From: Candidatus Thiodiazotropha sp. LNASS1
GTDB taxonomy: Bacteria; Pseudomonadota; Gammaproteobacteria; Chromatiales; Chromatiaceae
DNA length: 64,000 nucleotides
Reading direction: 5' to 3'
Assembly (NCBI RefSeq): GCF_964212655.1
Contig: NZ_OZ156465.1
Coordinates: 3,658,001 to 3,722,000, forward strand
Shown here: in pieces, positions 24,026-47,844 of the stretch
How positions within the stretch are numbered: position 1 is the stretch's first letter
How the letters are laid out: every line of letters begins with the position of its first letter
Notes under the pieces: generated by a model
The model's input: only the letters and a program-made list of their open reading frames with translations
Database searches by the model: none
What the model was told of the DNA's origin: nothing
Position numbers and translations under genes: made by a program

Positions 24026-25165
24026 TCATTCGTTGGTATTAGCGAGGCCTGTGAAACCTTCACCTTCGGCTAGCCCGGCCGGTCTGAATATCTCGACCTT
24101 ACGAAAGAACTGATCAACAATATAGACACGACCGTCTTCGTCAACATCGATACCGGCAGGCAGCATATACTTTGCCGGTCCGGCGGTTTCTGATCGCTCG
24201 CCTAGATACAGCAGTAATTCACCTTCAGGTGTGAATATCTGGAAATTACCAAATGCGGCATCAACGACATAGATGTTTCCTTCACTATCCGTTGCGATGC
24301 CCTTGGGGCGTGTAAATTGTCCTAAATGACGTCCCGCTGAGCCCCATGAGCTGATAGTCATACCTTGCTGGTTAAGGATTTGAATGCGAAAGTTTCCACC
24401 GTCGGTCACATAAAGATGGTCATTGGGACCGATTGCCACATCCCTGGGCAGATTGAATTCTCCATCTGCCTTACCGCGGGAGCCAATTGTGCGAAGGTGT
24501 GAACGGGTACGCGTATCATAAACCGCAATACTGTGTCGTGTTGACTTAACACCACCGACATCGACTACGAATAGTGTACTGCCATCCTCGCTCACTTCCA
24601 CTCCACTGGGACGATCCATCTCTTTGGAAAGGTCTATACCATAACGCCATTTACCGTTGCGGTCGTAGAGCATTAATTTCTTTAATTGTATATCACATAC
24701 ATAGAGGTTCCCTTTGTTATCTGTCGCCACACCCAGGGGTTTGTACAGATCGCTGGCATCGCCACTGTCTCCAATGATGATAGCCTCACCCGATACAAAA
24801 TCTAGAGCAAATACAACACGATGAACTGTATCACTGATAAATACACGTCCCTGGTGGACAGCGATATCAAAAGGCTTGGCGAAAGAATAACCATCTCTTT
24901 GGTTAGCTCCAGTGAGAAGGTTCTTCAAGCGTGAAATTTTGTCGGCAACATTTACTGCGCCTGTGCCAAATATAGTCTTCTCATAAAAAAAGCGCGGCTG
25001 ATCGGGTGGGGCGGGGAATGCAATCGGCTTTATTTTTATCACCTCGGGGCTACCAGCGCAGCTACTGATGAGTAACATAATTACCAATGCTAGGATTGCT
25101 TTCAGGCCTGTACTTATTAGATGATGGAATATATCCGTACAGCTTAGATTTAGTTTGTATCTCAT
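24026..25165 (-). CDS. NHL-repeat beta-propeller lipoprotein
   Basis: About 379 residues. A hydrophobic signal ends in lipobox MLLISSC, followed by six NHL blades, for example PFDIAVHQGRVFISD, KPLGVATDNKGNLYVCD, LPRDVAIGPNDHLYVTDGG, RPKGIATDSEGNIYVVDA and LPAGIDVDEDGRVYIVD. NHL propellers are recurrent partners in porin-cytochrome gene clusters. A second NHL lipoprotein lies at 35361 in the same island. The start is taken at ATG 25165; the frame extends upstream into the divergent cytochrome gene. Translation starts of the two genes are about 25 bases apart, so each promoter must lie inside the other gene. Confidence 0.85.
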   Translation of the reverse strand: MRYKLNLSCTDIFHHLISTGLKAILALVIMLLISSCAGSPEVIKIKPIAFPAPPDQPRFFYEKTIFGTGAVNVADKISRLKNLLTGANQRDGYSFAKPFDIAVHQGRVFISDTVHRVVFALDFVSGEAIIIGDSGDASDLYKPLGVATDNKGNLYVCDIQLKKLMLYDRNGKWRYGIDLSKEMDRPSGVEVSEDGSTLFVVDVGGVKSTRHSIAVYDTRTRSHLRTIGSRGKADGEFNLPRDVAIGPNDHLYVTDGGNFRIQILNQQGMTISSWGSAGRHLGQFTRPKGIATDSEGNIYVVDAAFGNFQIFTPEGELLLYLGERSETAGPAKYMLPAGIDVDEDGRVYIVDQFFRKVEIFRPAGLAEGEGFTGLANTNE

Positions 25166-25189
25166 CAATTTCACCGAATCATTTATGTG

Positions 25190-26224
25190 ATGAAGCCAAT
25201 TCGACGATTGCATCCAGACTTAATTGTGCTTTGCCTATTCCAGCTGGCTACTCTATGCAGTCTGCAAGTTGGTGCATCTGACGCGCCGTTGCCATCTACC
25301 ACTGCCGATATTGAAAGGCAACTGGAGAAGGGTCGTAAAATCTACAATTTCTACTGCTACTTTTGCCACGGTTATTCAGGGGATGCTAAGACCCTTGCGG
25401 CCAGGTTTCTCACTCCACCTCCAAGAAATTTTATCGCTACAGATCCAGAGAGATTAAACAAGCAACGTATTCTCGATGCAATCAGCAACGGTCGTCCCGC
25501 CACCGCCATGAAACCATTTCGAGATGTTCTCGCTGATGATGACATTGAGGCAGTCACTCTATATGTGCACACGGCATTCGTTGTCGGCAAACAACCAAAT
25601 ACCCAATACCATACAGTTGAAAATGGCTGGTACGAACATGACCGTTTCCGCGATAGTTTTCCCTTTGCAACAGGTGAGATTCCACTGGATGCTCCCGACG
25701 ACTCGCTGACTGATAAGCAGAAAATGGGCCTGCAGGTTTACCTTGAAAGTTGTATTAGTTGTCATGACAGATCCCATGTGAAAGATCCGACCGTAAATTG
25801 GGAGCCGGTTGCCACCTCCTACCCAAGGCTTGGGTTTAAGACAGGTGACAGTCTTCTCCCTCCAGATGAAAAATCCGGCGCCAGCCCTTTCGCGAAACAC
25901 GATATTGCGCCCTCCATTTCCGATCTTTCATCCGTAGAACAACTTGGCGAATCTCTGTTCCAACAGAATTGCGCCTTTTGCCATGCAGCCGATGGAACGG
26001 GTAAAAATTGGATCGGGACTTTTCTGCAACCCCATCCCCGGGATTTGACCGATCCAAAAGTCATGGCCACTATGAGCAGTGAACATCTGACAAAGGTCAT
26101 TCGCGACGGTCTCGCAAACACATCGATGCCGGCCTGGAAGTCTGTACTTAACGATGAACAGATCGATGCGGTCGTTCGCTATATTCATCGCGCTTTTCAC
26201 CCCTTGCCAGGATTCTTGGATTGA
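25190..26224 (+). CDS. Triheme c-type cytochrome with class I-like domains
   Basis: About 344 residues with a signal peptide (LIVLCLFQLATLCSLQVGASD). Three CxxCH haem sites are present: CYFCHGYSGDAKT with downstream PPPRNF, CISCHDRSH in the middle, and CAFCHAADGTGKNW with PHPRDL. The outer two belong to class I-like mono-haem domains with a distal Met ligand candidate in ATAMKPF and TSMPAW. Likely a periplasmic electron carrier. ATG 25190 follows GTG 25187; either may start. Its 3' end overlaps the convergent cytochrome gene by 28 bases. Confidence 0.87.
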   Translation: MKPIRRLHPDLIVLCLFQLATLCSLQVGASDAPLPSTTADIERQLEKGRKIYNFYCYFCHGYSGDAKTLAARFLTPPPRNFIATDPERLNKQRILDAISNGRPATAMKPFRDVLADDDIEAVTLYVHTAFVVGKQPNTQYHTVENGWYEHDRFRDSFPFATGEIPLDAPDDSLTDKQKMGLQVYLESCISCHDRSHVKDPTVNWEPVATSYPRLGFKTGDSLLPPDEKSGASPFAKHDIAPSISDLSSVEQLGESLFQQNCAFCHAADGTGKNWIGTFLQPHPRDLTDPKVMATMSSEHLTKVIRDGLANTSMPAWKSVLNDEQIDAVVRYIHRAFHPLPGFLD

Positions 26225-27225
26225 GTTCCACTCTGTTTCGGACGGATAAACACTTGGTAGACATATTCCACGATATCGGCAATCTGTTGTGTAGATAAAA
26301 CCTTATCCCACGCCGGCATATCCGTTCCACGACTGCCCTCGGCTATGGCAGAAAAGAGTTTAGGCCTGTTCAGCGTGTGGCGCGACGCGGTATGTTGGAA
26401 ATTGCGTGGTTTGGGCAGGATGAAATATGCACGTGGTCCCTTGCCATCCCCCTTGACGCCATGACAATCGACGCAATTCTTCAGGTAATAGCGCTGACCC
26501 CTCGAGGCGTCACCGGTGAGGTCTCGGCGGAGTTGCGCGCCCATATCTTCCTCATTCACCAGGTTATAATCTTCTATGACTTCATGTTTTTTATCGTGCT
26601 CGGACATGAAGGCCTGTCTGACAAAATCGACCACGCTTGAAATATCATCGTCGTCTAATTGAGATGAAAAGCCTGGCATTGCAGTATCCGCCTTCCCGTA
26701 ACGCACTACCTTGAACATATGTTTGCGGGAGAGTTGATCGGCACTCCCGGGAAGTGTGAAATTTCTCGGCGGTGGTTTCAGATTCGTCAATGTCCAACGC
26801 GCCCCTTGTCCATCGTCACCGTGACAAACGGAACAGTTTTCCGCATAAAGACGACGACCTGTTTTACCGTCCTCAACTGTTGATGGCCGTATCATGGTGA
26901 TTCTTATGTAATCCGCAATGGCTGCAATCTGTTCGTTGCTCAATTGGTTTTTCCAGCCGGCCATAGCCGTACCGGGTCGACCTTCGGATATCGAGAGGAT
27001 CATACGATCACGGGTTAATTCGACCGATGATTGTGGTGAGGTAAAATCACGAGGAGGGGGAATCATACTGCCTCTCGCACGACTTTTACCGTCACCGCCG
27101 TCACCATGACAAACGGAACAGTATTGTGAATAGAGTCCGCCGGCATCATTCATATTGCCCATGGCAACAGGATGGACCGATAGCATCGGCAGAATAAGCG
27201 CCACACGAAATAGATGTCTCATCAT
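26197..27225 (-). CDS. Triheme class I cytochrome c (three domains)
   Basis: 342 residues with a signal peptide, then three consecutive class I cytochrome c domains: CSVCHGDGGDGKS, CSVCHGDDGQGA and CVDCHGVKGDGKG. Each is followed by a PxPRxF motif and a likely distal Met (TAMAGW, TAMPGF, TDMPAW). Its internal architecture is a triplicated version of the domain seen twice in the convergent gene at 25190. Probably a periplasmic electron shuttle for the island's conduit. A sigma-54 promoter match lies about 53 bases upstream, divergent from the promoter of the main operon. Confidence 0.9.
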   Translation of the reverse strand: MMRHLFRVALILPMLSVHPVAMGNMNDAGGLYSQYCSVCHGDGGDGKSRARGSMIPPPRDFTSPQSSVELTRDRMILSISEGRPGTAMAGWKNQLSNEQIAAIADYIRITMIRPSTVEDGKTGRRLYAENCSVCHGDDGQGARWTLTNLKPPPRNFTLPGSADQLSRKHMFKVVRYGKADTAMPGFSSQLDDDDISSVVDFVRQAFMSEHDKKHEVIEDYNLVNEEDMGAQLRRDLTGDASRGQRYYLKNCVDCHGVKGDGKGPRAYFILPKPRNFQHTASRHTLNRPKLFSAIAEGSRGTDMPAWDKVLSTQQIADIVEYVYQVFIRPKQSGTQSKNPGKG

Positions 27226-27277
27226 AGTATGAACGATCGAAAGAGAAATTTATTCACTATGTATCTAAACAGATTTA

Positions 27278-27293
27278 GCAAAAACCGAACCAG
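27278..27293 (-). promoter_or_regulatory. Sigma-54 promoter of the triheme cytochrome gene
   Basis: On the minus strand TGGTTCGGTTTTTGCT matches the -24/-12 consensus TGGCACRNNNNTTGCW at 14 of 16 positions, with GG and GC correctly spaced. The expected transcript start is about 40 bases upstream of the ATG at 27225. Confidence 0.65.
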
Positions 27294-27389
27294 GCGCCGA
27301 TTTATGCAGTTGCGGTTTCCAATTTATACAAAACTGAAAAAATCTACGTTTCTCGATTAAGTTTGTTCGACCTTTGCGCTGAATAACTA

Positions 27390-27419: not shown

Positions 27420-27496
27420 GAAATAACAGGCGCAATCTACCCACTTGATATGAGCATATCCCACGTTACTTCTATGAATACCGCCAATTCTATTCT

Positions 27497-27512
27497 TGGC
27501 GCAGTTATTGCA
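27497..27512 (+). promoter_or_regulatory. Sigma-54 promoter of the main cytochrome operon
   Basis: TGGCGCAGTTATTGCA matches TGGCACRNNNNTTGCW at 15 of 16 positions, including the invariant GG and GC. It lies 56 bases upstream of the tetrahaem cytochrome ATG. The operon encodes its own sigma-54-dependent regulator at 43462. Confidence 0.8.
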
Positions 27513-27567
27513 GCCTCCCGAAAAGTTACGTGTTAATTCTGTGGATATCAGATTATGGGGAGGAATG

Positions 27568-28407
27568 ATGAACTACAAATTTATCTTAGCTGGCATTGCT
27601 TGTGCCTTGCTTTTCGCATCCAACAGCCAAGCGGCCGTTCGGGGGAGTGATCACGATCTTTCGGCTGGAGGGACGGCACAGGCAACCACATCCGCCACTA
27701 CCGAGGTATGTGTCTTCTGTCATACGCCTCACGGTTCCAATACGGCAGTCAGTGCGCCCCTGTGGAATAAAGCGAGCCCCGCAACGGCCTATACTCGCTA
27801 CTCTGATCTTGGAACGGCAACCCTCGATGGTTCAGAAGTTACTGTCGGATCAGTATCCCTGGCCTGTCTTTCGTGTCATGACGGGACGCAGGCAATGGAT
27901 GTTGTCGTCAACGCGCCCGGTTCAGGTGGCTGGGCAGCGGCAGGAACGGAGATTGATGCCGTTGCCATTTCAGCCATGACGAATACGGGTGGTGCTCCGA
28001 TTCCGATGTTGGGCACTGATCTACGGAACGACCATCCCATCAGTATCGCCTATGCAGGTGGTGGCTGTGGTGTAGGTGTCGATCCCTGTACACCGTCTAC
28101 CGGAGCAACCGCCGACCGTGATTTCAACGATGCCCAGCACGCTACCATCAATGGTAACAGCCAGTGGTGGATTGATGTGGCTTCTTACGACAGTACAGGC
28201 GACGGTATCCGTGATGCAACTGGGACCGCGGATACCCGCGAGAAATCCGACATGATTCTCTACACCCGTGACTTCACCGGTGTTGATGGGCCATCTGTGG
28301 AATGCGGAAGCTGCCACGATCCTCATGAGGAGACTGCTCGACCTGTAAGCTTCCTGCGAATTGCCAATACAAACAGCGATGTCTGCCTTGCCTGCCACAT
28401 TAAATGA
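27568..28407 (+). CDS. Tetrahaem c-type cytochrome (doubled-CXXCH type)
   Basis: About 279 residues with signal peptide (FILAGIACALLFASNSQA). Four CxxCH sites: CVFCHTPHG, CLSCHDGTQ, CGSCHDPHE and CLACHIK at the very C-terminus. The EVCVFCHTPHG block is shared with the 11-haem protein at 36425, so the two are related modules. A conserved NDHPISI motif also recurs in that protein. The start at ATG 27568 has GGAGG 4 bases upstream; an adjacent ATG at 27565 is too close. First gene of the sigma-54 operon, overlapping the next gene by 4 bases. Confidence 0.88.
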   Translation: MNYKFILAGIACALLFASNSQAAVRGSDHDLSAGGTAQATTSATTEVCVFCHTPHGSNTAVSAPLWNKASPATAYTRYSDLGTATLDGSEVTVGSVSLACLSCHDGTQAMDVVVNAPGSGGWAAAGTEIDAVAISAMTNTGGAPIPMLGTDLRNDHPISIAYAGGGCGVGVDPCTPSTGATADRDFNDAQHATINGNSQWWIDVASYDSTGDGIRDATGTADTREKSDMILYTRDFTGVDGPSVECGSCHDPHEETARPVSFLRIANTNSDVCLACHIK

Positions 28408-29561
28408 TTCTGCCTCCTGCGGCTATGTATATCCTCGATAACATCAGTTGGATAGGTATGGCAGTAGAGCGGTCCGCCAGACCAAAAGGCTGGCGGCTAT
28501 CGACACCCCGGCGTAATGGATCGACGGGGCAGTCTCCCCCGACGTTTCTGCCGCCGTTAATTCTGCTGCTCATGCTCATGATCTCACTCTCCACCGCTGA
28601 TGTACATTCAGCGGAAAATGAGACTGGAGAAAAGCAGGTATTCGCTACTGTTAATGGTGAATCGATTCCTATGTCAACCTACCGTGTGATTCTTCACATG
28701 GGTGCTCGGCAACGGTTTTACCATGGGCAACCACCTGAGGAGGAGCTAAAGGCCTATCGAAAGGAGGTGGGAGAACAACTGGTTGACGAGATAGTGCTTC
28801 ACCAGGAGGCGATGCGACGCGGCATCGTGCCCGATCCCAAGCGTGTGAAGCAGGAAGTCGACAAAAATGTCAAGCGTCTTGCAACGCAGACTGGCTGGGA
28901 GGAGGCAAAGAAAAAGATGGTGCCTCTTCTTCACCGGGGATTGCAGCGACACGACAGGATTAGGCAGCTCAAAGATCAATTTCGCAGTGAGGTAACGCAA
29001 CCCAGCGAAGCTGAGGTGCGTGTCTTTTACAATACCAATCTCGATAAATTCACTTCACCGCCGCAGTCGCGCATATCCATGATACTGCTGAAAGTGCCAC
29101 CTTGGGGCAGCGCCGATATTTGGAGCCAAAAGCGTGAAGAACTGACAGCGATAAAACATGAAATTATTAAGGGAATGGAATTTAGCGAGGCGGCGAAACG
29201 TTATTCAGATGACGGCTCTGCTCCCAATGGAGGGGATATGGGCTATCTGCATCAGGGAATGCTGGGGACACAGTCCGAAGAAGCGATTTCCAAACTGGAA
29301 ACCGGTGATATTTCGGACCCGATAACCTTATTGGAGGGGGTTGCCCTGTTCCATCTGATTGAACGAGCGGATGCACATATAAACCCGTTGGAAAAAGTCC
29401 GTCAGCGTGCCATTGAGTTGTTGATGAGAGAACGCCGGGAATCCGTTGTATCGGAAGAAGAGAGACGGTTACGCAACAGCGCCGATATTCACTACTCAGT
29501 CCCGGATTACTATGAACAGCGGCTGGAGTTGAGTGGCCGCGGCAAAAAGAAAAAATCTTGA
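28404..29561 (+). CDS. Parvulin-type peptidyl-prolyl isomerase (SurA/PpiC-like)
   Basis: 385 residues with an internal hydrophobic signal/anchor (PLILLLMLMISLS, about residues 50-65), a SurA-N-like helical region (about 75-200) and a parvulin domain (about 205-315) containing FSEAAKRYSDDGSAPNGGDMGYLHQG. Such periplasmic chaperones help fold outer-membrane barrels and are common in porin-cytochrome clusters; the next gene encodes such a barrel. ATG 28404 overlaps the upstream stop (ATGA), but a start at ATG 28458 would give a more usual signal peptide. Confidence 0.87.
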   Translation: MILPPAAMYILDNISWIGMAVERSARPKGWRLSTPRRNGSTGQSPPTFLPPLILLLMLMISLSTADVHSAENETGEKQVFATVNGESIPMSTYRVILHMGARQRFYHGQPPEEELKAYRKEVGEQLVDEIVLHQEAMRRGIVPDPKRVKQEVDKNVKRLATQTGWEEAKKKMVPLLHRGLQRHDRIRQLKDQFRSEVTQPSEAEVRVFYNTNLDKFTSPPQSRISMILLKVPPWGSADIWSQKREELTAIKHEIIKGMEFSEAAKRYSDDGSAPNGGDMGYLHQGMLGTQSEEAISKLETGDISDPITLLEGVALFHLIERADAHINPLEKVRQRAIELLMRERRESVVSEEERRLRNSADIHYSVPDYYEQRLELSGRGKKKKS

Positions 29562-29597
29562 TCGGGAACATCGTAAAACGATGGCCGAGTCCGGGTG

Positions 29598-31376
29598 ATG
29601 AACAAAGGTGGACTGTTGATCTTGTTTACTGGAACACTCATTACAACTACCGGAGGAGTATCTGGAACCGATTTTGATCGGTCGAGGGCCGTCTTTTCCG
29701 GCAGTCTGGGAATGCGATTCCGCGAGGTCATACCAGACTCAGGCGAAAAGTCCTTTCATCGAGCCTACACAGGGGAAGTGATCGGTAGAAATCAGATCTG
29801 GAAACCCTGGTTCGGGCATTGGAAGGGCAGACTCTCATCGAGCTGGGAAAGCAAGGAAAACGGTCGTGAGACGGAAAATGAAATCCTCTCAGGATCAGGC
29901 GAGATCAATCTGTTTCATTTAAGTAAGTTTCCGTTCTCCGCGTTTATCGATGTCAAGGATAGCCGGGTAGACGATAGCGACGCCTTGGAGCCCGGACGTG
30001 AGGAACGCCTGACACGTTACGGTTTGCGGCAATCGTTTACACCGGAATCGGGCGGCGTGAATTTCAACGTTAATCTGTTTCATGACGACCGCGAGGATCT
30101 GTTGACAGGCGATTCCGAGATGAGTACGCACGGTATTATGAGCGGTTTTCTTCACCGCGGGCCTCATCGCTTAAGCGCACTGGTATTGGCGAATGACAGG
30201 TCGCGCAGCCAAATCATGGACCGCCATAAGGATTGGCAGTCGGATTTCACCCACGCCTACAATCCGGGTGCGAAATTCAGCCTGATAACGAGTATCGGTG
30301 CAAGCGGTAGCGAGTCCGAGGATACCCTGGGGGAAAGCGAATCATCCCAGGAAAGATTGGCCACGAACATGTTGTGGAGAGCGGAAACACTGCCTGTTAC
30401 CGTGCGCGGCGATTTATTTTTCAAGTCGCTATCCAGTCAATCAGAAGCCCGGCGTGACAAGGAGGAAGACGAGACAAGGGGAAATCTTTCATTAACCTAC
30501 CTGCCTGATGACCATTGGCGTTTAAGGGGCAGTGTGGGTGGCCTGGTACGCACCGGCGATGTTGAAGAGAAGAGTTATGTCCAGTCATTCACGGCCGACT
30601 ATACCTCGCAATTGATTCCATGGGGTGAATTTACTTACGGCTACGGCGCAGGGATCGGACTTTCAAACGAAATAAACACCGACGACGAGGATGAATGGAT
30701 CGGACAGACGGAATTTTCCCATAATCTCAATCGTGCCTGGCAATATGACTGGTTCGGGCCAGTCGGCATGTCGATCACGTTTGGCCAGGACTTGAGTTAC
30801 GAAAGTTCATCGATAGATGAAGATCTGGGGACATTGGTCAATCGTATCTCATATAGCCTGAACTCAACCGGTGAAGAGAGTTCGACAAATCTCAATATCG
30901 TGTTTTATGACTCCCGTAATTCCGGGCGCAATGATTTTGCCACCCAGAACATAAGCATTAACGCCATCCATAATCAGCGGCTTTCTCGCTATTCCGACTA
31001 CGGAATCACATACAACGTCAATTTCACGAGACAGAGAGGGGATAACTCATCCGTGGTTGAGGACGACTTTTTTGCTGTAGATTCGAAACTTGAAATTGAA
31101 GATACCGAGTTCAGCAGTCTTGAGATCTTTTACCACAACAATCGCATGTTCAAGGTGCGAAATCTACGATTCGGCAGTCGCCTCAGGGCATCAAGCAGAT
31201 CACTCTTCCTGGATGATCTAGATTCGGAATCCGGTAATGAATATTTCTGGGAAAACCGACTCGATTACAACATCGGGAAACTGGATATCGACCTACGCAC
31301 AACTTGGGTTGAGCGACCAGCAGCGGATGATGCAGGCACCAAAACAATCACCTTAAACGTGCGACGGTATTTTTAA
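29598..31376 (+). CDS. Large outer-membrane beta-barrel protein (porin-cytochrome conduit candidate)
   Basis: 592 residues with a signal peptide (GLLILFTGTLITTTGGVSG), then a long run of alternating hydrophobic/polar strands separated by acidic turns (for example FTADYTSQL, FTYGYGAGIGLS, NYGITYNVNF-like segments) and a C-terminal aromatic residue in VRRYF, the BAM recognition end. I estimate at least 20 strands, as expected for a barrel able to sheathe a multihaem cytochrome. It has no clear MtrB family motif that I can see. Flanked by a PPIase and triheme cytochromes, it is the best candidate for the transmembrane part of the conduit. Confidence 0.78.
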   Translation: MNKGGLLILFTGTLITTTGGVSGTDFDRSRAVFSGSLGMRFREVIPDSGEKSFHRAYTGEVIGRNQIWKPWFGHWKGRLSSSWESKENGRETENEILSGSGEINLFHLSKFPFSAFIDVKDSRVDDSDALEPGREERLTRYGLRQSFTPESGGVNFNVNLFHDDREDLLTGDSEMSTHGIMSGFLHRGPHRLSALVLANDRSRSQIMDRHKDWQSDFTHAYNPGAKFSLITSIGASGSESEDTLGESESSQERLATNMLWRAETLPVTVRGDLFFKSLSSQSEARRDKEEDETRGNLSLTYLPDDHWRLRGSVGGLVRTGDVEEKSYVQSFTADYTSQLIPWGEFTYGYGAGIGLSNEINTDDEDEWIGQTEFSHNLNRAWQYDWFGPVGMSITFGQDLSYESSSIDEDLGTLVNRISYSLNSTGEESSTNLNIVFYDSRNSGRNDFATQNISINAIHNQRLSRYSDYGITYNVNFTRQRGDNSSVVEDDFFAVDSKLEIEDTEFSSLEIFYHNNRMFKVRNLRFGSRLRASSRSLFLDDLDSESGNEYFWENRLDYNIGKLDIDLRTTWVERPAADDAGTKTITLNVRRYF

Positions 31377-31420: not shown

Positions 31421-31819
31421 ATGCGAAAAAGATATCAAATGGTATTGCCATCAATATCAATACTGTTGATTTTCGCATTTACCGTCAATGACGCAGGTGC
31501 GGAGTATGGGGATGTGGTGATCAATAACTATTCCGATGAAGCCGGTATGCGGCCAGTGGTGTTTCCCCATTGGTTTCATCGTATACGTTTCCGTTGCAAG
31601 GTATGTCATGCCGATCTTGGCTTCAAATTCCAAGCCGGTGGAAATGACATCACAATGCTCAAGATCATCGACGGCGAATATTGTGGTGCCTGCCATAACG
31701 GCGACATAGCCTGGTCAGTAGAAAACTGTAACGTCTGCCATTCCGCAACACCCGGCACCAAGACACAGGTACACGAAAGCACGCTGCAAAAATTGATTGC
31801 ACCGGCTGCCGCCAAGTAA
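31421..31819 (+). CDS. Triheme c7-type cytochrome A
   Basis: 132 residues with signal peptide ending DAGA. Three haem motifs CKVCH, CGACH and CNVCH fit the c(7)-type triheme ('nanowire') domain, with added His ligands in FPHWFHRIRF. It is closely similar to the protein at 34968 (shared PHWFHRIRFRCKVCH and NGxIAWSVENC). In such domains haems are bis-His and pack closely for rapid electron transfer. Likely periplasmic. Confidence 0.88.
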   Translation: MRKRYQMVLPSISILLIFAFTVNDAGAEYGDVVINNYSDEAGMRPVVFPHWFHRIRFRCKVCHADLGFKFQAGGNDITMLKIIDGEYCGACHNGDIAWSVENCNVCHSATPGTKTQVHESTLQKLIAPAAAK

Positions 31820-31832
31820 CGGAGTTCAAGCA

Positions 31833-32651
31833 ATGAAGAGCCGCCAAACGATATTTCTTCTTTACTTGGTTGTTTTTTTTGTTTCACCGGCATTTGGGGC
31901 GAATATTTCACCTGTCGGCAAAGCCAGGGTTGATGAAGTGGCTAAAGACCAAAAGGCAGTTGAGAGTCCTGGATCCGTCCCCGAAAAAAAGAAGGATAGA
32001 GATACGTCATCCAACGGTGAAAAGCATGGGACTGGTAAAAAAGAAGCCTCGCAGCAAAGCACTAACGCCAGTGATGGCAAAAAGGTGAGTGACAAAAAAC
32101 AGGACCCACCGAGAAAGCAAAATGATAAGCAGATCAAACCAGGCAAGAAGCTAGCCTATAACCGCAGTCCCAACAGCTTCAATCGACTGCTGAAACCTCC
32201 ATCCAAGAGAAACCCGTCGCCGGCCAAGGATGGAATTCATGATCCGGATAACGACGGCACTCATATCTTGCAGGCACCGAAGGATTCCTTCAGTCAGTTG
32301 ACCAAGTCCAATTCCGGAAATCGGGTGGATTGGGTCGCGGCCATCGAAAAAGGAGAAATTAACCCTCGTTTCGATCGGCTGGATCCTGAGAAGGTCCCCA
32401 TCATTCTTGACCTGAACATTGTTCGTGAAGTGAAGGGCAGCATGCCCGATGTTGTCTATCCACACAAACAGCATACAGAGTGGCTCGATTGCTCAAACTG
32501 TCATCCTGCCATCTTTGTTCCCATGAAGGGGGCTAACAATATCAGTATGGCTTCGATCCTGCTGGGTGAGAAATGCGGGGTCTGTCATGGCAAAGTCGCA
32601 TTTCCTGTATCGGAATGCAGGAAGTGCCACTCCAAGAACAAAACGGAGTAG
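31833..32651 (+). CDS. Triheme c7-type cytochrome B with long lysine-rich linker
   Basis: 272 residues. After a signal peptide (IFLLYLVVFFVSPAFGA) comes a very polar, Lys/Asp/Ser-rich region of about 100 residues, probably disordered, then a conserved block (GIHDPDNDG...) and a C-terminal triheme domain with CSNCH, CGVCH and CRKCH. The C-terminal half matches the protein at 34401 (HTEWLDCSNCH). The linker may span the periplasm or bind a partner. The start is ATG 31833 after a GGAG site; an upstream in-frame start would overlap the preceding gene. Confidence 0.85.
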   Translation: MKSRQTIFLLYLVVFFVSPAFGANISPVGKARVDEVAKDQKAVESPGSVPEKKKDRDTSSNGEKHGTGKKEASQQSTNASDGKKVSDKKQDPPRKQNDKQIKPGKKLAYNRSPNSFNRLLKPPSKRNPSPAKDGIHDPDNDGTHILQAPKDSFSQLTKSNSGNRVDWVAAIEKGEINPRFDRLDPEKVPIILDLNIVREVKGSMPDVVYPHKQHTEWLDCSNCHPAIFVPMKGANNISMASILLGEKCGVCHGKVAFPVSECRKCHSKNKTE

Positions 32652-32654
32652 CGA

Positions 32655-34396: not shown

Positions 34397-34400
34397 GGCA

Positions 34401-39864: not shown

Positions 39865-40673
39865 ACGATTACACCCTGTGGCTCTATCCCGCGGCGATCG
39901 CCTATCACCTGGCGGCTGTGTTATCGATTCAGGAACTGCTCGACAGATGCAATGACTACAGCCGTTGGATCGGAGGAACGATCCTGGCTGGGACACTTTT
40001 TGTCACTTTAGCCATCGCCGGACGCTGGCTCACCTATGGCCAGGGACCTTTCCTGACCATGCATGAAGTGTTGATCAGCAGCCTGTTCAGCCTTTCATTC
40101 ATCTATGGCCTGGCCTATGTTTTCGTCCCGATCACCCGGGTCGGCGCTCCTTTTGCCGCGGTTACGATACTGTTGCTTTTCATTTGGGCCGCCGAGACCG
40201 ATCCCGGGATCAGGCTGTTGCCACCGACCTATGAGACACCCTGGCTATGGGTGCATGTCATCTTCGGAAAGCTCTTCCTCGGGTGTTGTCTGGTTGCGAC
40301 CAGTCTTGGCGTATGGCTCATCACGCCTTTAAAGCGGTTCGTGCGCTCTGCACGTTACATGTGGGTACCACAACAGCTCGAACGGCAAGTCTGGATATGG
40401 CTCTCATTAGCTTTTTTGTTTCACAGCGTCATGCTGATCGCAGGCGCGGTCTGGGCGCAGGATGCGTGGGGACGCTATTGGGATTGGGACCCCCTTGAAA
40501 CCTGGGCCTTTATCACCTGGCTCTGCATGGCGCTTACCCTGCATATGCGATCAGTCTACCCACTGGGGCCGCGCACTCTCTCATTGCTGGCGATGGGGGT
40601 GTTCGTCCTTGCCTTCCTGACTTTTTTCGGGGTGCCGTTCGTCAGTGTCAATCCCCATCAGGGGGCTGTATGA
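39861..40673 (+). CDS. ccsA: CcsA-type cytochrome c biogenesis (haem handling) protein
   Basis: 270 residues with about eight TM segments and the tryptophan-rich haem-handling motif WAQDAWGRYWDWDPLETWAF (residues about 195-214), diagnostic of the CcmC/CcmF/CcsA family. Conserved His residues occur in FLTMHEV, WVHVIFG and FLFHSV, which flank the haem. Overlaps the ResB-like gene by 4 bases (ATGA). Together they form System II, which attaches haem to CxxCH motifs, here presumably serving the island's own cytochromes. Confidence 0.92.
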   Translation: MNDYTLWLYPAAIAYHLAAVLSIQELLDRCNDYSRWIGGTILAGTLFVTLAIAGRWLTYGQGPFLTMHEVLISSLFSLSFIYGLAYVFVPITRVGAPFAAVTILLLFIWAAETDPGIRLLPPTYETPWLWVHVIFGKLFLGCCLVATSLGVWLITPLKRFVRSARYMWVPQQLERQVWIWLSLAFLFHSVMLIAGAVWAQDAWGRYWDWDPLETWAFITWLCMALTLHMRSVYPLGPRTLSLLAMGVFVLAFLTFFGVPFVSVNPHQGAV

Positions 40674-41209
40674 GAATGTCGCCGGACTTGCGTTTGCCGA
40701 TCGCTGCCCTGGTCGCAATTGCGACATTGACCGTAGTCGCGTTAATCCGGGATGAAATCGGCAAACCTGCCGCTAAAGTTGAAATGGAACGTGAAACTGC
40801 GCAAGCCATGGAGCAATCCCCGCTCGATGATCTATTCCTGAATGCGGTGGGATTGCTGCACACGCGGCATTTTGAACCGGCAGTGCATTCATTCAACAAG
40901 CTGGTGGAGCTGGCGCCTTGGATGCCGGAAGCGGAAGTGAATCTGGCCTATGCCTTGATGGGAATGGGTCAATATGCCGAGGCACAACACCACTTCAACC
41001 ATGCGCTTGAACTGAATGATCGTCAGCTGAATGCCTATTACGGCCTCGCGATTTCCTTGGAACAGCAGGGTGATTTGGAATCCGCATTGGGTGCAATGCG
41101 TGTTTACGTGCATCTTGCGGCGGATGACGATCCCTACCGGCGCAAGGCCTGGGCGGCGATCTGGGAGTGGGAAAATACACGCAATGTTGGAGAGAAGGTG
41201 ATCGAATGA
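40670..41209 (+). CDS. Membrane-anchored TPR protein
   Basis: 179 residues: one N-terminal TM segment (LPIAALVAIATLTVVALI), then about three TPR units (residues 55-160), for example EAEVNLAYALMGMGQYAEAQHHFNHALELN, read as two helices. TPR proteins such as CcmI act as apocytochrome chaperones, and this one lies directly after CcsA with an ATGA overlap, so a similar role is plausible. Confidence 0.8.
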   Translation: MRMSPDLRLPIAALVAIATLTVVALIRDEIGKPAAKVEMERETAQAMEQSPLDDLFLNAVGLLHTRHFEPAVHSFNKLVELAPWMPEAEVNLAYALMGMGQYAEAQHHFNHALELNDRQLNAYYGLAISLEQQGDLESALGAMRVYVHLAADDDPYRRKAWAAIWEWENTRNVGEKVIE

Positions 41210-43452
41210 ATAAACGATTCCTGAGCTTCACCCTATTGAGTCTGGTTGGGATGATTGCGGTTACGATCATGTTGGTCGCGGTTTTCCGGGATATCAATCA
41301 GGCTACGCTGGAAAAACATTTCCACGAACACAATGTCTTGCTTGCCCGTATTCTGCGTAATGGTTTGGTGAACGACAGGTTGCCCGAGGTATTGAAAGGG
41401 GAGCAGGAGAGTGTGGGAGACAATCGCTTCCTAACCTCGTTTGAGGCAAAACTAAAGCAATATCTCAAGGATGTATATGTTGCGAAGATCAAGATTTTCG
41501 ATCTGGGAGGAATCACTATCTACTCCTCAGCTCCGGGTGAAGCGGGCAGGGATGCGAGCAGGAATCCAGGCGTCTTTGCGGCGCTTAACGGGCTCAGTTC
41601 GGGCAGTATGGTCTATAGGGACAAGTTCAACAGCTTTGACGGCATGATCGAGAACCGTAACCTTTATCAGCAGTATATTCCCATCAACGGACTGGCGGAT
41701 GATCGTGTCGAGGGTGTGTTCGAGATCTACTCCGATGTCACACCTTTTCTGCAAGCCGTTTCCGACACGGAGCAGGAGTTTGTCATCGGGTTGTTGGCTG
41801 TCCTGGGAACATTCCTATTGGCGCAGGTATGGCTCTATCATCGAACGGATTCCGCTTTGGTCAAGGAGCAGGCTCAAACAAAGCAGTATCTGCAGGAACT
41901 GGAGGATCACCGCAAGGATCTGGAATCGCGTGTACAGGTACGCACCGAGGAACTCGAGTCATCACACTATTTCCTGCAATCCATCATCGATGGTATTGCA
42001 AATCCACTGTTCGTGATTAAAAAGGATTTACAGATCTCGCTGATGAACAAAGCCGCCAAGGGCTTGATCAATATGAATACGCCTAAGGAAAAAATGGCCT
42101 ACTGCTACCAGATCTCCCACCGCCGCGACACACCCTGCGACGGCAGTGACCATCCCTGTTCCTTCCAGGAAGTGATGCGTACCCAATCGACCGCCACCGT
42201 GCAGCACAGACACTATGATGCCGATGACAATCCTATCATCGTCGATGTGATATCGACGCCGCTCTACGACAAACAGGGTGAAATGCAGGGTATCATCGAG
42301 GTACAGCACGATGTCAGCGAACTTGTTTATGCCAAGCAGAATCTGGCGCAAAGCGAGGCCAGGCTGCAGGCTATTCTCGATCATATTCCCGATGCTATCT
42401 TCACGCTCGATACCACAGGAAGGGTGGAGTCAGCCAACATGGCCGCCCTGGGCATGTTCAATTACCCTCACACGGAGTTGATCGGCAAAAGATTCGAGTC
42501 CCTGTTTTCCGAGGATCGTGAGGTTTTGCTCAAAAACACGAATCAGGGCGAGAACGAGTATTGCGCACGAAAACAAGGGGACGAACTTTTTCCTGTCGAT
42601 CTGTGGATTGGTGATTTGCATTTAGCCCATGAGAAGCGATTGGTTGCTGTCGTAAGGGACATTACCGAAAGCAAGATAGCGGCGCAGGAACTGGAGCGAA
42701 CCCGACAGCAGTACTATCACCAGGAGAAAATGGCGGCCATCGGTCAGTTGGCTGCCGGCATATTGCACGAGGTCGGAAATCCCATCGCCGCCATTGCAGG
42801 GGCGGCGGACAATATGCGGTCCGCAAATGGATGGGGTGAGCAACAGAACGGTGAGAAGCCTGATTTTCCACAAGTCGTAATCCGTAATCTGAATATGATC
42901 GAAGAGCATACCGAGCGTCTCTCGAAGATTACCCGGGACATTGCCGATTTCGCCTCCCCCCGAATCCGTAAGCGTGAGTTGACCGATATCAACGGTTTGA
43001 TAAGGAGCACATCTCGACTCCTCGGTTATGACCATCGCTACCGCAAAATGGAGATCAGGCAGACCCTCGACAGTCAGTTACCTGCAGTGGAGGCGGTACC
43101 TGACCAGATAACACAGGTGTTGGTAAACCTGATTATCAATGGCCTGGACGCCTGCAACACAGGCAGGCTGCAGCCGGTGGTTGAGGTTATGACACGGGTT
43201 GTGCAGGACGGCATCGAGATAGAGGTGAAAGACAATGGCGCCGGAATGGATGAGCGGACCCTCGAACACGCACTCGAGCCTTTCTTTACCACCAAGGAGC
43301 CGGGTAAGGGCACTGGTCTCGGGCTCTCGTTGTGCAGTTCGATTATCAGTGCACATAACGGCAGATTGAGCATCGTAAGCCACTCCGGCACAGGCACATC
43401 GGCGACCGTTTACCTGCCCGGTATCGAAACTCACTCTGAGACGAATGCGTAG
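41206..43452 (+). CDS. PAS-domain sensor histidine kinase
   Basis: 748 residues. TM1 (about 5-27), a periplasmic sensor domain (28-190) and TM2 (192-210), then a coiled coil. PAS1 is at about 259-380 and contains a Cys-rich segment CYQISHRRDTPCDGSDHPC (about 299-318); PAS2 is at about 385-500. The HisKA motif ILHEVGNPIAAIAG carries phospho-His521. The HATPase domain has the N box VNLIINGLDAC, G1 DNGAGM and G2 GTGLGLSL. Start ATG 41206 overlaps the TPR gene stop. With the adjacent NtrC-type regulator it forms the island's control system. Confidence 0.93.
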   Translation: MNKRFLSFTLLSLVGMIAVTIMLVAVFRDINQATLEKHFHEHNVLLARILRNGLVNDRLPEVLKGEQESVGDNRFLTSFEAKLKQYLKDVYVAKIKIFDLGGITIYSSAPGEAGRDASRNPGVFAALNGLSSGSMVYRDKFNSFDGMIENRNLYQQYIPINGLADDRVEGVFEIYSDVTPFLQAVSDTEQEFVIGLLAVLGTFLLAQVWLYHRTDSALVKEQAQTKQYLQELEDHRKDLESRVQVRTEELESSHYFLQSIIDGIANPLFVIKKDLQISLMNKAAKGLINMNTPKEKMAYCYQISHRRDTPCDGSDHPCSFQEVMRTQSTATVQHRHYDADDNPIIVDVISTPLYDKQGEMQGIIEVQHDVSELVYAKQNLAQSEARLQAILDHIPDAIFTLDTTGRVESANMAALGMFNYPHTELIGKRFESLFSEDREVLLKNTNQGENEYCARKQGDELFPVDLWIGDLHLAHEKRLVAVVRDITESKIAAQELERTRQQYYHQEKMAAIGQLAAGILHEVGNPIAAIAGAADNMRSANGWGEQQNGEKPDFPQVVIRNLNMIEEHTERLSKITRDIADFASPRIRKRELTDINGLIRSTSRLLGYDHRYRKMEIRQTLDSQLPAVEAVPDQITQVLVNLIINGLDACNTGRLQPVVEVMTRVVQDGIEIEVKDNGAGMDERTLEHALEPFFTTKEPGKGTGLGLSLCSSIISAHNGRLSIVSHSGTGTSATVYLPGIETHSETNA

Positions 43453-43461: not shown

Positions 43462-44820
43462 ATGAAACAGATGCATATTTTGGTTGTCGATGATGAAGCT
43501 GCCATCCGTCAGGTGTTGGCGGAGCAACTGACCCGTTCAGGACACACGGTTGAGCAGGCGGACTGTGGAGAGGAGGCTTTGACAATGCTCCAATCCTCAG
43601 ACTTTGACGTCTGTATCTGCGATCTGCGACTGCCTGATCTGGATGGCATCGAAGTCATCAGGCGCTGCCGGGCAAAAGAGATGGACATCGCTTTTCTTAT
43701 GATCACCGCTTTCGCCTCGGTCGATACCGCGATCGAAGCCATGAAACTGGGCGCCTACGACTATCTCATGAAACCGGTTCAGCTTGAGGATGTACTGATT
43801 CGCCTCGACCACATCGCCGATGTCGCGCGCCTGCGTGATGAGAACCGCTATCTGCGAAAAATGGTGGAGTCCGATACCGGATCGGATACCTTGGGCCTGT
43901 CTGTGCCCATGCGGAAAATTCAGACCCTCATCAACAAGGTGTCACGCACCGACAGCACCGTCCTCATAACGGGTGAAAGCGGCACCGGAAAGAGCCACAT
44001 TGCCCGTACGATCCACTATGAAAGCAATCGGCGTGACCGGGCGATGGTGACCGTGAACTGTGGTGCGATTCCGAAGGAGTTGTTGGAGAGCGAGCTATTC
44101 GGACACATCAAAGGCGCTTTTACGGGTGCGGACAGAATCAAAAAAGGTCTCTTCCGGGAGGCCGACGGTGGCACGCTCTTTCTCGATGAAATCGGTGAAT
44201 TGCCGCTTACACTGCAGGTTAAGCTGCTGCATGTCATCGAGGATAAGGAGGTTAGGCCCCTGGGAGCGGAACAGTCGAGGCGGGTCGATGTGCGTATCAT
44301 TGCGGCAACCAACAGGAACATTGTCGAAATGATGCAGAGCGGAGAATTCAGGGAAGATCTCTTTTACCGTTTGAATGTACTCCACATTACCCTGCCGCCA
44401 CTGCGTAGCCGCAGGGAGGATATCCCCTTGTACATCGAGTATTTCCTCAACACGGAAATTTCAAGACTCGGTTTGGAGGGGAGTTACAGCATAGACCCGG
44501 AGGTGGAGGAACATTTGCTTGCCTACGAATGGCCGGGAAACCTAAGAGAACTGCAGAACGTTATCGCCCGGATGCTGGTCCTCGCGGAGGAACGCGCCAT
44601 CAACATGGGCGATCTTCCATCTCATGTAACCCGGTATGAACACAATGGTAACAAATACGAATTCGGTAAAACATTCGGCTCGTTGAGAGAGCAGGTGAGG
44701 CAATTCGAAATAGGCGTGATCAAAAAGGCGATCGACGCTGCCGGCAATGATCGTGCACTTGCCGCGCGTTCACTCGATATCGGCCTTTCCACGCTCTATC
44801 GGAAACTCGAGGAAAGATAG
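43462..44820 (+). CDS. Sigma-54-dependent response regulator (NtrC family)
   Basis: 452 residues: receiver domain with phospho-acceptor Asp54 (CICDLRLPD), AAA+ domain with Walker A GESGTGKS (171-178), the sigma-54 contact loop GAFTGA (218-223), Walker B GGTLFLDEIGELP and arginine finger region FREDLFYRLNVL, and a Fis-type helix-turn-helix at the end (RALAARSLDIGLSTLYRKL). Partner of the kinase encoded 10 bases upstream. It probably activates the two sigma-54 promoters at 27278 and 27497 through the palindrome at 27390, making the operon autoregulatory. Confidence 0.95.
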   Translation: MKQMHILVVDDEAAIRQVLAEQLTRSGHTVEQADCGEEALTMLQSSDFDVCICDLRLPDLDGIEVIRRCRAKEMDIAFLMITAFASVDTAIEAMKLGAYDYLMKPVQLEDVLIRLDHIADVARLRDENRYLRKMVESDTGSDTLGLSVPMRKIQTLINKVSRTDSTVLITGESGTGKSHIARTIHYESNRRDRAMVTVNCGAIPKELLESELFGHIKGAFTGADRIKKGLFREADGGTLFLDEIGELPLTLQVKLLHVIEDKEVRPLGAEQSRRVDVRIIAATNRNIVEMMQSGEFREDLFYRLNVLHITLPPLRSRREDIPLYIEYFLNTEISRLGLEGSYSIDPEVEEHLLAYEWPGNLRELQNVIARMLVLAEERAINMGDLPSHVTRYEHNGNKYEFGKTFGSLREQVRQFEIGVIKKAIDAAGNDRALAARSLDIGLSTLYRKLEER

Positions 44821-44879
44821 TGTGCAAATTACCTAAAGAGCAACGACCTAGACGTAGATTCAGTATACGATCTGCAGTC

Positions 44880-45413
44880 ATGTCAAACAAAAGACTTAAC
44901 ACCATTTTATTAATCCTGACCCTTATCATGCCGTCATTGTCATTCGCCGATCCTCATGAGGATTATCTGCGTGGTTTGGCGGCGTATCAGCGTGAAGACC
45001 TCATGACCGCAATCGAATCGCTGAAGATCGCCGCGGACAGTGGCCATGCCAAGGCGCAAAGCCTGCTTGGTTATATTTACGATATCGCCGAGGAGAACGA
45101 GCAAGCTTTTCACTACTACCGGCAAGCTGCGGAGCAGGGCGAGGCTGATGGCGCTTACGGAATGGGCACGCTGTACGCCACGGGAGAAGGTGTTGTACAA
45201 GACCTCTTCGAGGCGGTCAGGTGGTTTGAAAAAGCGGCCGACGCCGGCCATCCACAGGCCATAGATCTGCTAGCCACTGCCTATTTGAATGGCGGTTTGG
45301 CATTGACCAAAGACAGTGCCAAAGCGATAGATCTTTTAGAACGTGGTGCGGCGCTGGGGCATTCTCCCTCCATTGAACGTTTGAAAGCGCTCAAGGAGAA
45401 AGAGGGGATATAA
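44880..45413 (+). CDS. Exported Sel1-repeat protein
   Basis: 177 residues with signal peptide (LNTILLILTLIMPSLSFA) and about four Sel1-like repeats, including GHAKAQSLLGYIYD, GEADGAYGMGTLYATGEGVVQD and GHPQAIDLLATAYLNGG. Sel1 repeats form helical solenoids for protein contacts. ATG 44880 gives a standard signal peptide; a GTG at 44820, overlapping the regulator stop, would add 20 charged residues. Probably the operon continues through it. Confidence 0.82.
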   Translation: MSNKRLNTILLILTLIMPSLSFADPHEDYLRGLAAYQREDLMTAIESLKIAADSGHAKAQSLLGYIYDIAEENEQAFHYYRQAAEQGEADGAYGMGTLYATGEGVVQDLFEAVRWFEKAADAGHPQAIDLLATAYLNGGLALTKDSAKAIDLLERGAALGHSPSIERLKALKEKEGI

Positions 45414-45453
45414 AACGAATCCAAATCTAAAAACAGAAATCAGCAATCGCATA

Positions 45454-46584
45454 ATGAACAGATCAAGCAAAATCCAAGTCACTTCCATTCTGACCTTTCT
45501 GTTTTTCGGAATGACCGCGATTTCCGCAGCAGACAGCGAGTCTGATATAGGCGACCGCCTGTCCATCGAAAATCCGACTTCCCACGGGAACATCGAGGTT
45601 CTGGAACGCTATGAGATCGGCCAAAGTGTCTATGCAAGGGCGCTTGCAGTTGAAACCGGGACAAACAGCCTGTGGGTCGGCACATCGGCGGGTGTGCACG
45701 AGATCGATCTGCGAGATCAGTCGATCCGAAACACCTTCACTCGCGAGCACGGACTGGCGAACGAGTATGTCTTCGCGATAGGCATAGATCAGGCAGGTTA
45801 CAAGTGGTTCGGCACAAATGCGGGTGGCATGTCCCGTTATCGCGATGGCAAGTGGAAGACCTGGTTCCCTATGCACGGTCTAGCCGACTATTGGGTCTAC
45901 GCTTTTGCCTGGCAGCCGGACGGTACGCAGTGGATTGGAACCTGGGCAGGGGCTAATAGCCTCGATCCGGCTACGGGGGAGATGAAGACCTACCTGAGCG
46001 AATTGGTGAATGAGTGGGTTTATGGCATTGCCGTCGATTCGAAAAACCGGGTCTGGTTCGGAACGGAAGGGGGAATAAGCCGTTTCGATGGCAAAGACTG
46101 GGTGTCATGGGATCATGCTGACGGTCTCGGCGAAAAAAACAGCGACAAAAAACCCTTCAGCCGCAATACGGGGCTTGGTACGCGAAGCCGTCACGACCTT
46201 GGGGTGCTCAGCGGAGGAGAAGCGACCTACAACCCCAACTATGTATTCAGCGTGTTGATCGATCAGCAGGACAATCTCTGGGCAGGCACATGGGGTGGTG
46301 GCCTCGCCTGGTTCAACGGTGAGCAGTGGCATAACTACACCGTTGACGATGGCCTCGCGGGGGATATCGTTTATTCCATCGCAATGGAACCTAGCGGTGT
46401 TCTATGGATAGGCACAAACAACGGGTTGTCGCGATTTGACGGAAATGAATGGACAACTTTTGGACGTAACGACGGCTTCAGTGATCTCAATGTATACGCC
46501 GTAGTCGTGACACCGAATGGAGAAATCTGGGCAGGCACTAAGGGGGCGGTAGTCAGGTTGGGCATCAACAAGGGTGACGGTTAA
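45454..46584 (+). CDS. Periplasmic two-component-regulator-type propeller protein (copy 1)
   Basis: 376 residues with signal peptide (ILTFLFFGMTAISAA). The rest is made of propeller repeats of the 'two-component regulator propeller' type: SLWVGTSAGVHEID, YKWFGTNAGGMSRY, VWFGTEGGISRF, LWAGTWGGGLAWF, LWIGTNNGLSRF and IWAGTKGAVVRL, each followed by HGLA or DGL-type turns. Such propellers are normally the sensor domains of hybrid kinases; here the protein stands alone. It may bind a ligand for the island's kinase. Confidence 0.85.
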   Translation: MNRSSKIQVTSILTFLFFGMTAISAADSESDIGDRLSIENPTSHGNIEVLERYEIGQSVYARALAVETGTNSLWVGTSAGVHEIDLRDQSIRNTFTREHGLANEYVFAIGIDQAGYKWFGTNAGGMSRYRDGKWKTWFPMHGLADYWVYAFAWQPDGTQWIGTWAGANSLDPATGEMKTYLSELVNEWVYGIAVDSKNRVWFGTEGGISRFDGKDWVSWDHADGLGEKNSDKKPFSRNTGLGTRSRHDLGVLSGGEATYNPNYVFSVLIDQQDNLWAGTWGGGLAWFNGEQWHNYTVDDGLAGDIVYSIAMEPSGVLWIGTNNGLSRFDGNEWTTFGRNDGFSDLNVYAVVVTPNGEIWAGTKGAVVRLGINKGDG

Positions 46585-47844
46585 ATGAAAACGAGAAACG
46601 AAAAAGCGATCTATGCAGCCATCGGAATTGTTGCCATTGTGGCTGCCTACCGGGCCGGCACACAACAAAGTACTCCGGAAACCGATTCATCACCGCAGCA
46701 AAAGCAGGCTGAAATCGAGAGTTTGCCAGAGAAAACTGTATCGAATACGCCAATACCGAGCCTGTTGCCGGATTCACACCCTCCAAGCAACCCAGACCAG
46801 GGACGCAGTGTCGATGACAAGGGTATCCGGTTCGCTCACTTCAGGGTTGGCAACAGCAACGTCAAGGCGATTTTGAATGACGGTGACACTTTGTGGGTAG
46901 GGACGTCCGGTGGTGTCATTCGTTACGACAAAACCAAGGATGAACACCGCCTCTTCGATGTGCGGTCTGGACTACTGTCCAACGGTATCTTTCATCTCAG
47001 CAAGTATGGCAAGAAACTCGTGGTCGGAACCTATGGCGGAGGACTTTCACTCTTTGATCCCGATACTGAAGACTGGGAGAACTACAACATCCAACACGGT
47101 CTAGCGGATGCGTTTATTTACGACATGCTCGAGATGGAAAACGGTGATGTCTGGATCGCCACCTGGTCCGGGGCGAATAGGGTCATAGGAGGCAAATTCG
47201 ACGACCGCTCGGCTTGGCAGACATTCACTGTTGAAAACACCCAAAACGGCCTACCCAACGATTGGGTATACGCCTTGGCAAAGGGTCGCGAGGGCGATAT
47301 ATGGATGGCGACGGAAGGCGGTTTGGCCAACTTCAAAGATGGTGCCTGGAAAAACTGGAGGCATGAAGACGGATTGGGTGCGCCATATGAGCTGGTTAAA
47401 GATCAAATAGACTTCAAGCGGGATCCGGCAAAGGAGTCGAGTCACCATGCACGGCAAAAGGTGGAGATGGGGCTTCAGAGTATTGATGTCGCATATAACC
47501 CCAACTATATCGTTTCACTTTATGTTACGCCACAAGGCATCGTATGGTGCGGAACCTGGGGGGGAGGCCTCGCACGATTCGATGGAGCAGTATGGAGCTA
47601 TTTCACCGCCAAAGATGGTCTACCAGCCAACCATGTGTTCATGCTAGAACCGGGAGAGAATGGAGAAATGTGGATAGGCACAAGCAATGGGCTCGCCAGG
47701 TTTGATGGAAAATCGTTCAAAACGCTCACCACTCATGACGGTCTGTTTGCCAATAATGTGTTCTCCTTGGCCATGGAAACAAACGGAACAATATGGGTTG
47801 GCAGCTTCGGTGGGGTTTCAAAGCTACAGAATCTAAAGCTGTAA
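46585..47844 (+). CDS. Membrane-anchored two-component-regulator-type propeller protein (copy 2)
   Basis: 419 residues, starting immediately after the preceding stop (TAAATG). An N-terminal TM anchor (AIYAAIGIVAIVAAYRAG) and a Pro/Ser-rich linker precede propeller repeats such as TLWVGTSGGVIRYD, LVVGTYGGGLSLFD, IWMATEGGLANF, VWCGTWGGGLARFD, MWIGTSNGLARFD and IWVGSFGGVSKL. Tandem paralog of copy 1, sharing the AYNPNYI/TYNPNYV motif. Last gene of the operon. Confidence 0.85.
   Translation: MKTRNEKAIYAAIGIVAIVAAYRAGTQQSTPETDSSPQQKQAEIESLPEKTVSNTPIPSLLPDSHPPSNPDQGRSVDDKGIRFAHFRVGNSNVKAILNDGDTLWVGTSGGVIRYDKTKDEHRLFDVRSGLLSNGIFHLSKYGKKLVVGTYGGGLSLFDPDTEDWENYNIQHGLADAFIYDMLEMENGDVWIATWSGANRVIGGKFDDRSAWQTFTVENTQNGLPNDWVYALAKGREGDIWMATEGGLANFKDGAWKNWRHEDGLGAPYELVKDQIDFKRDPAKESSHHARQKVEMGLQSIDVAYNPNYIVSLYVTPQGIVWCGTWGGGLARFDGAVWSYFTAKDGLPANHVFMLEPGENGEMWIGTSNGLARFDGKSFKTLTTHDGLFANNVFSLAMETNGTIWVGSFGGVSKLQNLKL

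Follow-up and report, generated by a model that had tools for sequence, protein, structure and literature searches.

An island-borne Uet gene cluster with OmcE-like cytochromes in Candidatus Thiodiazotropha sp. LNASS1

In Geobacter, the OmcS-companion (osc) cluster joins a nanowire cytochrome with an isomerase, a channel, and propeller proteins, a composition that resembles the undecahaem electron transfer (Uet) gene set in outline. The Uet parts given in PMC10734462 are the undecahaem UetJ, the tetrahaem UetA, the trihaem UetDEG, the isomerase UetB, the NHL proteins UetHI, and the barrel UetC, and the genes uetABCDEFGHIJ have been named in Tenderiales (PMC12575090). OmcE of Geobacter sulfurreducens polymerises, with one haem being ligated by a His of the next subunit (PMC12954529; PMC12307469), and its filament has a reported rise of about 34 Å. 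The DNA analysed here, hereafter the window, comprises 64,000 nt of the 4.75 Mb single-contig genome of Candidatus Thiodiazotropha sp. LNASS1 (contig NZ_OZ156465.1, positions 3,658,001 to 3,722,000). Window positions 24026-47844 hold a gene cluster that, judged by its gene content and order, is an island-borne new member of the published Uet set, and its UetA- and UetJ-like cytochromes are homologous to OmcE. The cluster is read here, with a probability of roughly 0.6, as a conduit for electrons that spans the envelope and bears an OmcE-type filament outside the cell. No paper linking Uet with OmcE was among those listed by literature searches, though the founding Uet, OmcE-structure, and nanowire-survey papers may already say some of this; both names occur in PMC12575090, OmcE within a reference title only. 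The gene set itself is known, and follow-up is merited by the homology to OmcE, the sigma-54 promoter element, and the empty insertion site.

The cluster is assigned to Uet because its parts match the list in PMC10734462 and because the gene order recurs in other genomes. Tetrahaem A, isomerase B, barrel C, trihaem D, E, and G, NHL H/I, and undecahaem J stand together at the locus, as in the Uet of Tenderiales and some Gallionellaceae; the Tenderiales set was compared by its published parts list. The order in the window is A, B, C, D, E, F1, F2, G, a further c7 gene, NHL, and J, followed by ResB, CcsA, and a TPR-like gene, while a second NHL gene and two class-I trihaem cytochrome genes sit just upstream of uetA. 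Compared with published Uet, the F position is filled by two genes, a fourth c7 gene is present, one NHL gene is divergent and upstream, a two-component system with Sel1 and propeller genes lies downstream, and the whole cluster is contained within a tRNA-Met insertion. A search for the same gene set elsewhere, as the first-pass annotation had proposed, found a common gene order in other Beta- and Gammaproteobacteria (17 fetched gammaproteobacterial loci and 80 named loci), and since corresponding genes recur elsewhere in this order, the grouping is not due to chance.

The first-pass annotation had described multihaem cytochromes with 33 haems, a barrel, an isomerase, propellers, and a regulator of the cluster's own. 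Open reading frames, domains, and motif counts agree with this, giving 33 CXXCH over eight multihaem cytochromes (3+3+4+3+3+3+3+11) and a kinase with an NtrC-type sigma-54 regulator inside the cluster. It likened the set to the conduits of Geobacter and iron oxidisers, but Uet is the closer match. Its proposal of a new conduit type had to be given up, the set being already published as Uet (PMC10734462; PMC12575090), and the c7 and helical genes that it took for additions proved to be canonical parts, with D, E, F, and G being regular members in the 17 fetched and 80 named loci. The homology to the OmcE filament was absent from its view.

Sampling of 368 further gammaproteobacterial genomes showed the barrel in 17 of them, and sampling of 95 further members of the host's own family, which did not include the related carrier genome G470, showed it in none. 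Among the 17 fetched loci, D and E were labelled in all 17, A in 16, B in 15, and the 11-haem J in 12; one locus (L032) begins inside the cluster so that A is not covered, L021 ends within J, and L022 and L025 end before J. When named genomes were scanned with the c7 protein, 386 relatives were obtained. The best 80 were kept and labelled by profile; the counts are lower bounds, many contigs being cut. These best 80 of 386 contained the barrel in 76, the isomerase in 71, a UetA-like protein in 67, the divergent-type NHL protein in 59, J in 56, ResB in 44, CcsA in 43, the two trihaem cytochromes in 45 and 51, Sel1 in 11, and the propellers in 4 and 5. By title, the carriers are Beta- and Gammaproteobacteria and Magnetococcales, with one bin each from Rhodospirillales and Planctomycetota, and the named isolates carrying the cluster belong to Dechloromonas, Ramlibacter, Ideonella, Sedimenticola, and Thalassotalea.

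The relation to OmcE is carried by two genes, both on the forward strand, as are all features below unless stated otherwise. The UetA-like tetrahaem cytochrome (27565..28407) matched OmcE (7TFS) with an E-value of 1.5e-24 and 9YUQ with 6.7e-23, and these were its only matches among 177635 distinct Protein Data Bank (PDB) sequences at E up to 0.1. The UetJ-like undecahaem cytochrome (36425..38821), an OmcE-like tetrahaem unit followed by seven haems, matched the same two entries through its first 214 residues (residues 19-214 against OmcE, E 1.1e-22). The UetA-OmcE alignment scored 89.8 bits, compared with a maximum of 10.3 in 300 shuffles preserving the CXXCH residues, and a control, the multihaem protein at 59665, matched nothing in the PDB at E up to 0.1. 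Like OmcE, UetA keeps four CXXCH and four further His; it differs in length (280 aa from the ATG at 27565, against 232 in OmcE), and UetJ carries seven extra haems. By analogy with the filament-forming OmcE, UetA would polymerise with inter-subunit His ligation.

His 53, 180, and 277 and all four CXXCH were invariant in a 47-row alignment. The wider set consisted of 62 UetA rows that scored over 200 against the profile and had exactly four CXXCH, and excluded UetA without exactly four CXXCH and UetJ with fewer than ten. In it, the N-terminal His was kept in 62/62 UetA rows, CHxPH in 61/62, DHP in 62/62, and CxxCHxxH in 62/62, and all four distal-His motifs were present in 54/54 UetJ N-domains. 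The fourth distal His (79) was kept in 61/62 UetA rows and 54/54 UetJ N-domains. Of 30 UetA-like proteins with lower scores, just 1 had it, while the N-terminal His (28/30) and DHP (29/30) were mostly retained. These paralogues (for example L038:3653-4372 and L041:3385-4122) are mostly encoded upstream of an NHL gene in betaproteobacterial clusters, and with the distal His of CHTPH lost in 29 of 30, one of their haems may be left with an open site or be ligated by another protein. Sixty domains were placed in a tree, comprising randomly drawn rows (22 of 62 UetA, 12 of 30 paralogues, and 20 of 54 UetJ) along with those of the window, the second cluster, and the PDB. In this tree the UetJ units grouped together (100/99), as did the paralogues (100/99), while the UetA rows formed no single group and the placement of OmcE and 9YUQ was unsure owing to long branches.

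Beyond the observed gene content, homologies, ligand conservation, promoter element, and island, we infer filament formation, electron passage through the barrel, the roles of the parvulin and NHL proteins, and the place of UetJ. In the proposed mechanism, ResB and CcsA would load haem, and the parvulin would assist the folding or export of the haem proteins. The c7 and class-I trihaem cytochromes would then relay electrons across the periplasm to or from the outer-membrane barrel, and UetA would serve as the extracellular leg, most likely by stacking into a filament. The NHL propellers would act as lipoprotein scaffolds, and UetJ would be the likely adaptor between filament and barrel. A broader proposal is more tentative and has somewhat less than an even chance of being right, namely that the Uet clusters of Beta- and Gammaproteobacteria in general encode OmcE-type nanowire systems, often under sigma-54 control and moving as island modules, in which UetA polymerises and UetJ, as a protomer of the filament with a fused seven-haem domain, caps or anchors the wire at the barrel by the same inter-subunit haem ligation. 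If UetA forms filaments, cytochrome nanowires would extend to many Beta- and Gammaproteobacteria and could be tested outside Geobacter in the named isolates, and a fused protomer such as UetJ would offer a natural way into the question of how wires are anchored to cells.

A sigma-54 promoter element, TGGCGCAGTTATTGC, lies at 27497..27511, 68 nt before the likely ATG of uetA at 27565, and was identified by pattern search and cross-locus comparison. The open reading frame is listed from a TTG at 27496, which falls at this element; the ATG behind GGAGGA is the likely start. With at most one mismatch allowed and GG/GC intact, an element was present upstream of uetA in 36 of 61 regions (the window included), compared with 0.4 on average and at most 3 in 200 shuffles, and with 168 of 6466 control windows taken elsewhere in the same loci on both strands. 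The identical 15 nt element occurs in G470. Since the whole window contains 13 pattern matches against 5.2 expected, single sites are weak by themselves, and the case rests on the cross-locus comparison. The sensor histidine kinase with PAS domains (41167..43452; Pfam) and the NtrC-type response regulator with its sigma-54 activator domain (43462..44820; Pfam) would be paired with the uetA promoter and activate it through sigma-54. No paper linking sigma-54 with Uet was among those listed by a literature search, though the founding Uet paper may already say some of this.

The direction of electron flow cannot be read from the sequence. In the host genome the RuBisCO large subunit is matched twice and, over cut-off, dsrA twice and NapC/NirT five times, on the basis of which the host would be an autotroph with sulfur metabolism, probably a sulfur oxidiser. 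There is about an even chance that the cluster takes up electrons, with minerals, electrodes, or other cells as their source, and does not export them, a proposal compatible with the other readings. Uptake fits the naming of Uet in cathode-oxidising Tenderiales (PMC10734462; PMC12575090), and the RuBisCO and dsrA matches are expected of an autotroph able to use extra electron donors. On the other hand, OmcE in Geobacter serves export to insoluble acceptors (PMC12954529; PMC12307469), the NapC/NirT matches could feed export, and dsrA alone cannot separate oxidation from reduction.

The cluster could instead encode a plain porin-cytochrome conduit, in which the barrel would house UetJ or a c7 protein, in the manner of MtrA within MtrB, and UetA would stay a monomer at the cell surface, as a cytochrome that forms no filament. 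The likeness to Mtr/Pio/Mto and PCC3 lies in the large outer-membrane barrel and the periplasmic and outer cytochromes. The UetC-like barrel (29595..31376; 593 aa) matched no Pfam family over cut-off and nothing in NCBIfam at E up to 0.1, but AlphaFold2, run with 43 sequences, gave a confident barrel (mean pLDDT 91.0, pTM 0.73) in which 28 strands are at least 11 residues long; the MtrB barrel has 26. The first-pass annotation's view of an electron-transfer cluster with a large barrel holds, and the small closed pore that it named as counter-evidence was not predicted. Unlike in those systems, no MtrA/DmsE-family decahaem protein is found over cut-off, as the 4-haem and 11-haem proteins score 28.5 and 44.4 bits against TIGR03508, compared with a cut-off of 192.2. 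Since this family is lacking among the 4- and 11-haem proteins, and UetA retains the His positions of a known filament cytochrome, a conduit of this plain kind is considered the less likely reading.

Several observations weigh against the filament-bearing conduit and its proposed control. Homology to OmcE does not prove polymerisation. The structure model of UetJ is poor (pLDDT 49.1), and its putative adaptor role is deduced from the protein sequence. In a structure comparison with the PDB, MtrB was among the matches of UetC, but TonB-dependent and other barrels scored equally high. UetB does not lie between A and C in L026 and L027; UetJ is missing from L033 and L034 although NHL, ResB, and CcsA are present; and L087, L114, and L115 encode the barrel, NHL, and ResB/CcsA, with UetJ absent from the part covered, so neither UetJ nor UetB is essential everywhere at that site. 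At the stringency used, 25 of the 61 uetA regions are free of the sigma-54 element, and among the best 80 of 386 loci the kinase was found in 7 and the regulator in 6.

The location of the cluster in an island, as first annotated, is borne out by empty sites in relatives. The left end of the insertion is the 3′ half of a tRNA-Met gene (19600..19646; tRNA 19568-19644), where the matching sequence of relatives stops. This sequence recurs as an att-like inner copy at 48056..48104 (about 92% over 49 nt, by repeat comparison) and as an 18-nt exact copy at 54969..54986, the right end of the whole 35-kb insertion. G464, from the same species, and G475 run from window position 19646 directly to 54969, sharing the 18-nt repeat, which makes this a clean empty site for 19647-54968 (about 35 kb); G478 resumes at 55079. 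A tRNA 3′ end as target, direct repeats, and an empty site in relatives are all present, as expected of a tRNA-associated island. The inner copy, whose similarity continues for about 110 nt, suggests two insertions. G007 fits this, as it is without 19647-47970 and has 48196-54382 at 95.7%, but its joint is imperfect, as the tRNA is followed by 356 nt of different sequence, 47971-48060 are present, and 48061-48195 are lacking. The putative second insertion (48105-54968) encodes a HEAT protein, an alginate-export-type barrel, and a two-component system, and is present in G007 and absent in G464, G475, and G478.

In about 20 kb taken from each of G463, G470, G063, and G462, no cluster was found at this site. 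G470 carries the syntenic module (window 20130-47831) elsewhere at 74-77% nucleotide identity, and because that copy lies at another place, the module has moved; the insertion shows that machinery of this kind can be transferred within a genus as a single unit. An ECF-type sigma factor (20896..21411, reverse strand; putative anti-sigma at 20126-20899) and a DUF5666 repeat protein (21856..23352, reverse strand), both assigned by Pfam and synteny, move with the module in G470. No integrase domain was found among the insertion frames scanned with Pfam, a scan that did not take in short frames, the TPR and Sel1 genes, and the 51930/53364 kinase-regulator pair. That the cluster is a degenerate, unused passenger of the island would fit UetJ proper occurring in 2 of 21 genus genomes sampled (its own included) and being absent from the same-species genome, but is very improbable, as all cluster frames are open, the sigma-54 element is unchanged in G470, and the UetJ protein is 93% identical to the G470 copy despite the 74-77% identity of the module DNA, which points to purifying selection (from a comparison of identities).

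All named genes are open reading frames at the expected coordinates, and domains were assigned with Pfam and NCBIfam. Upstream of uetA lie the divergent second NHL propeller lipoprotein (24026..25213, reverse strand) and two class-I trihaem cytochromes with three CXXCH each (25187..26224, and 26197..27225 on the reverse strand), which carry the Cytochrome_CBB3 domain; all three recur in other loci. UetA is followed by the UetB-like parvulin peptidyl-prolyl isomerase (28404..29561), with Rotamase and SurA-like N (SurA_N) domains. Four trihaem c7 proteins match Cytochrome_C7 and TIGR04257 ‘nanowire_3heme’ over cut-off: UetD-like (31421..31819), UetE-like (31797..32651), UetG-like (34359..34961; a paralogue of the 31797 gene), and a further one also seen in other loci (34968..35348; a paralogue of the 31421 gene). 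Two helical proteins (32655..33497 and 33515..34396) occupy the UetF position as judged from other loci, and the UetH/I-like NHL propeller lipoprotein (35361..36428; domain and other loci) precedes UetJ. The NHL domain was found in both lipoproteins, and Paired_CXXCH in the 4-haem and 11-haem proteins.

Downstream of UetJ are the System II cytochrome c assembly proteins, ResB-like (38734..39864; true start probably inside the frame) and CcsA-like (39861..40673; Cytochrom_C_asm), and a linked TPR-like protein (40670..41209). The ResB-like protein scores 29.8 bits against a cut-off of 24.6 (E 3.6e-7), although a genome-wide ResB search gave no match; the host genome also encodes CcmF of System I. 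The two-component pair is followed by a Sel1-like repeat protein (44820..45413), named, as was the TPR-like protein, by inspection, and by two Reg_prop propeller proteins (45454..46584 and 46585..47844; Pfam and other loci). In other genera, Sel1 and Reg_prop propeller genes lie close to uetA (L103, L068, L073, and L091), and the propellers may be true Uet partners.

A second OmcE-type cluster lies at about 1.01-1.02 Mb of the host genome (L116:4864-14877; chromosome position about 1.011-1.021 Mb in G000:C1). It encodes a 219-aa OmcE-like tetrahaem protein (E 2.8e-34 to 7TFS), two c7 proteins, two NHL proteins, a 681-aa protein without a Pfam match in the barrel's place, and a 12-haem protein of 597 aa that matches OmcE with its first part at E 5.2e-24. 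The 12-haem type (open frame near 600 aa) was found in 14 of 21 genus genomes sampled, its own included, and not in the same-species G464. Within the window but outside the insertion, a 957-aa multihaem cytochrome with cadherin/Big domains is encoded at 59665-62538.

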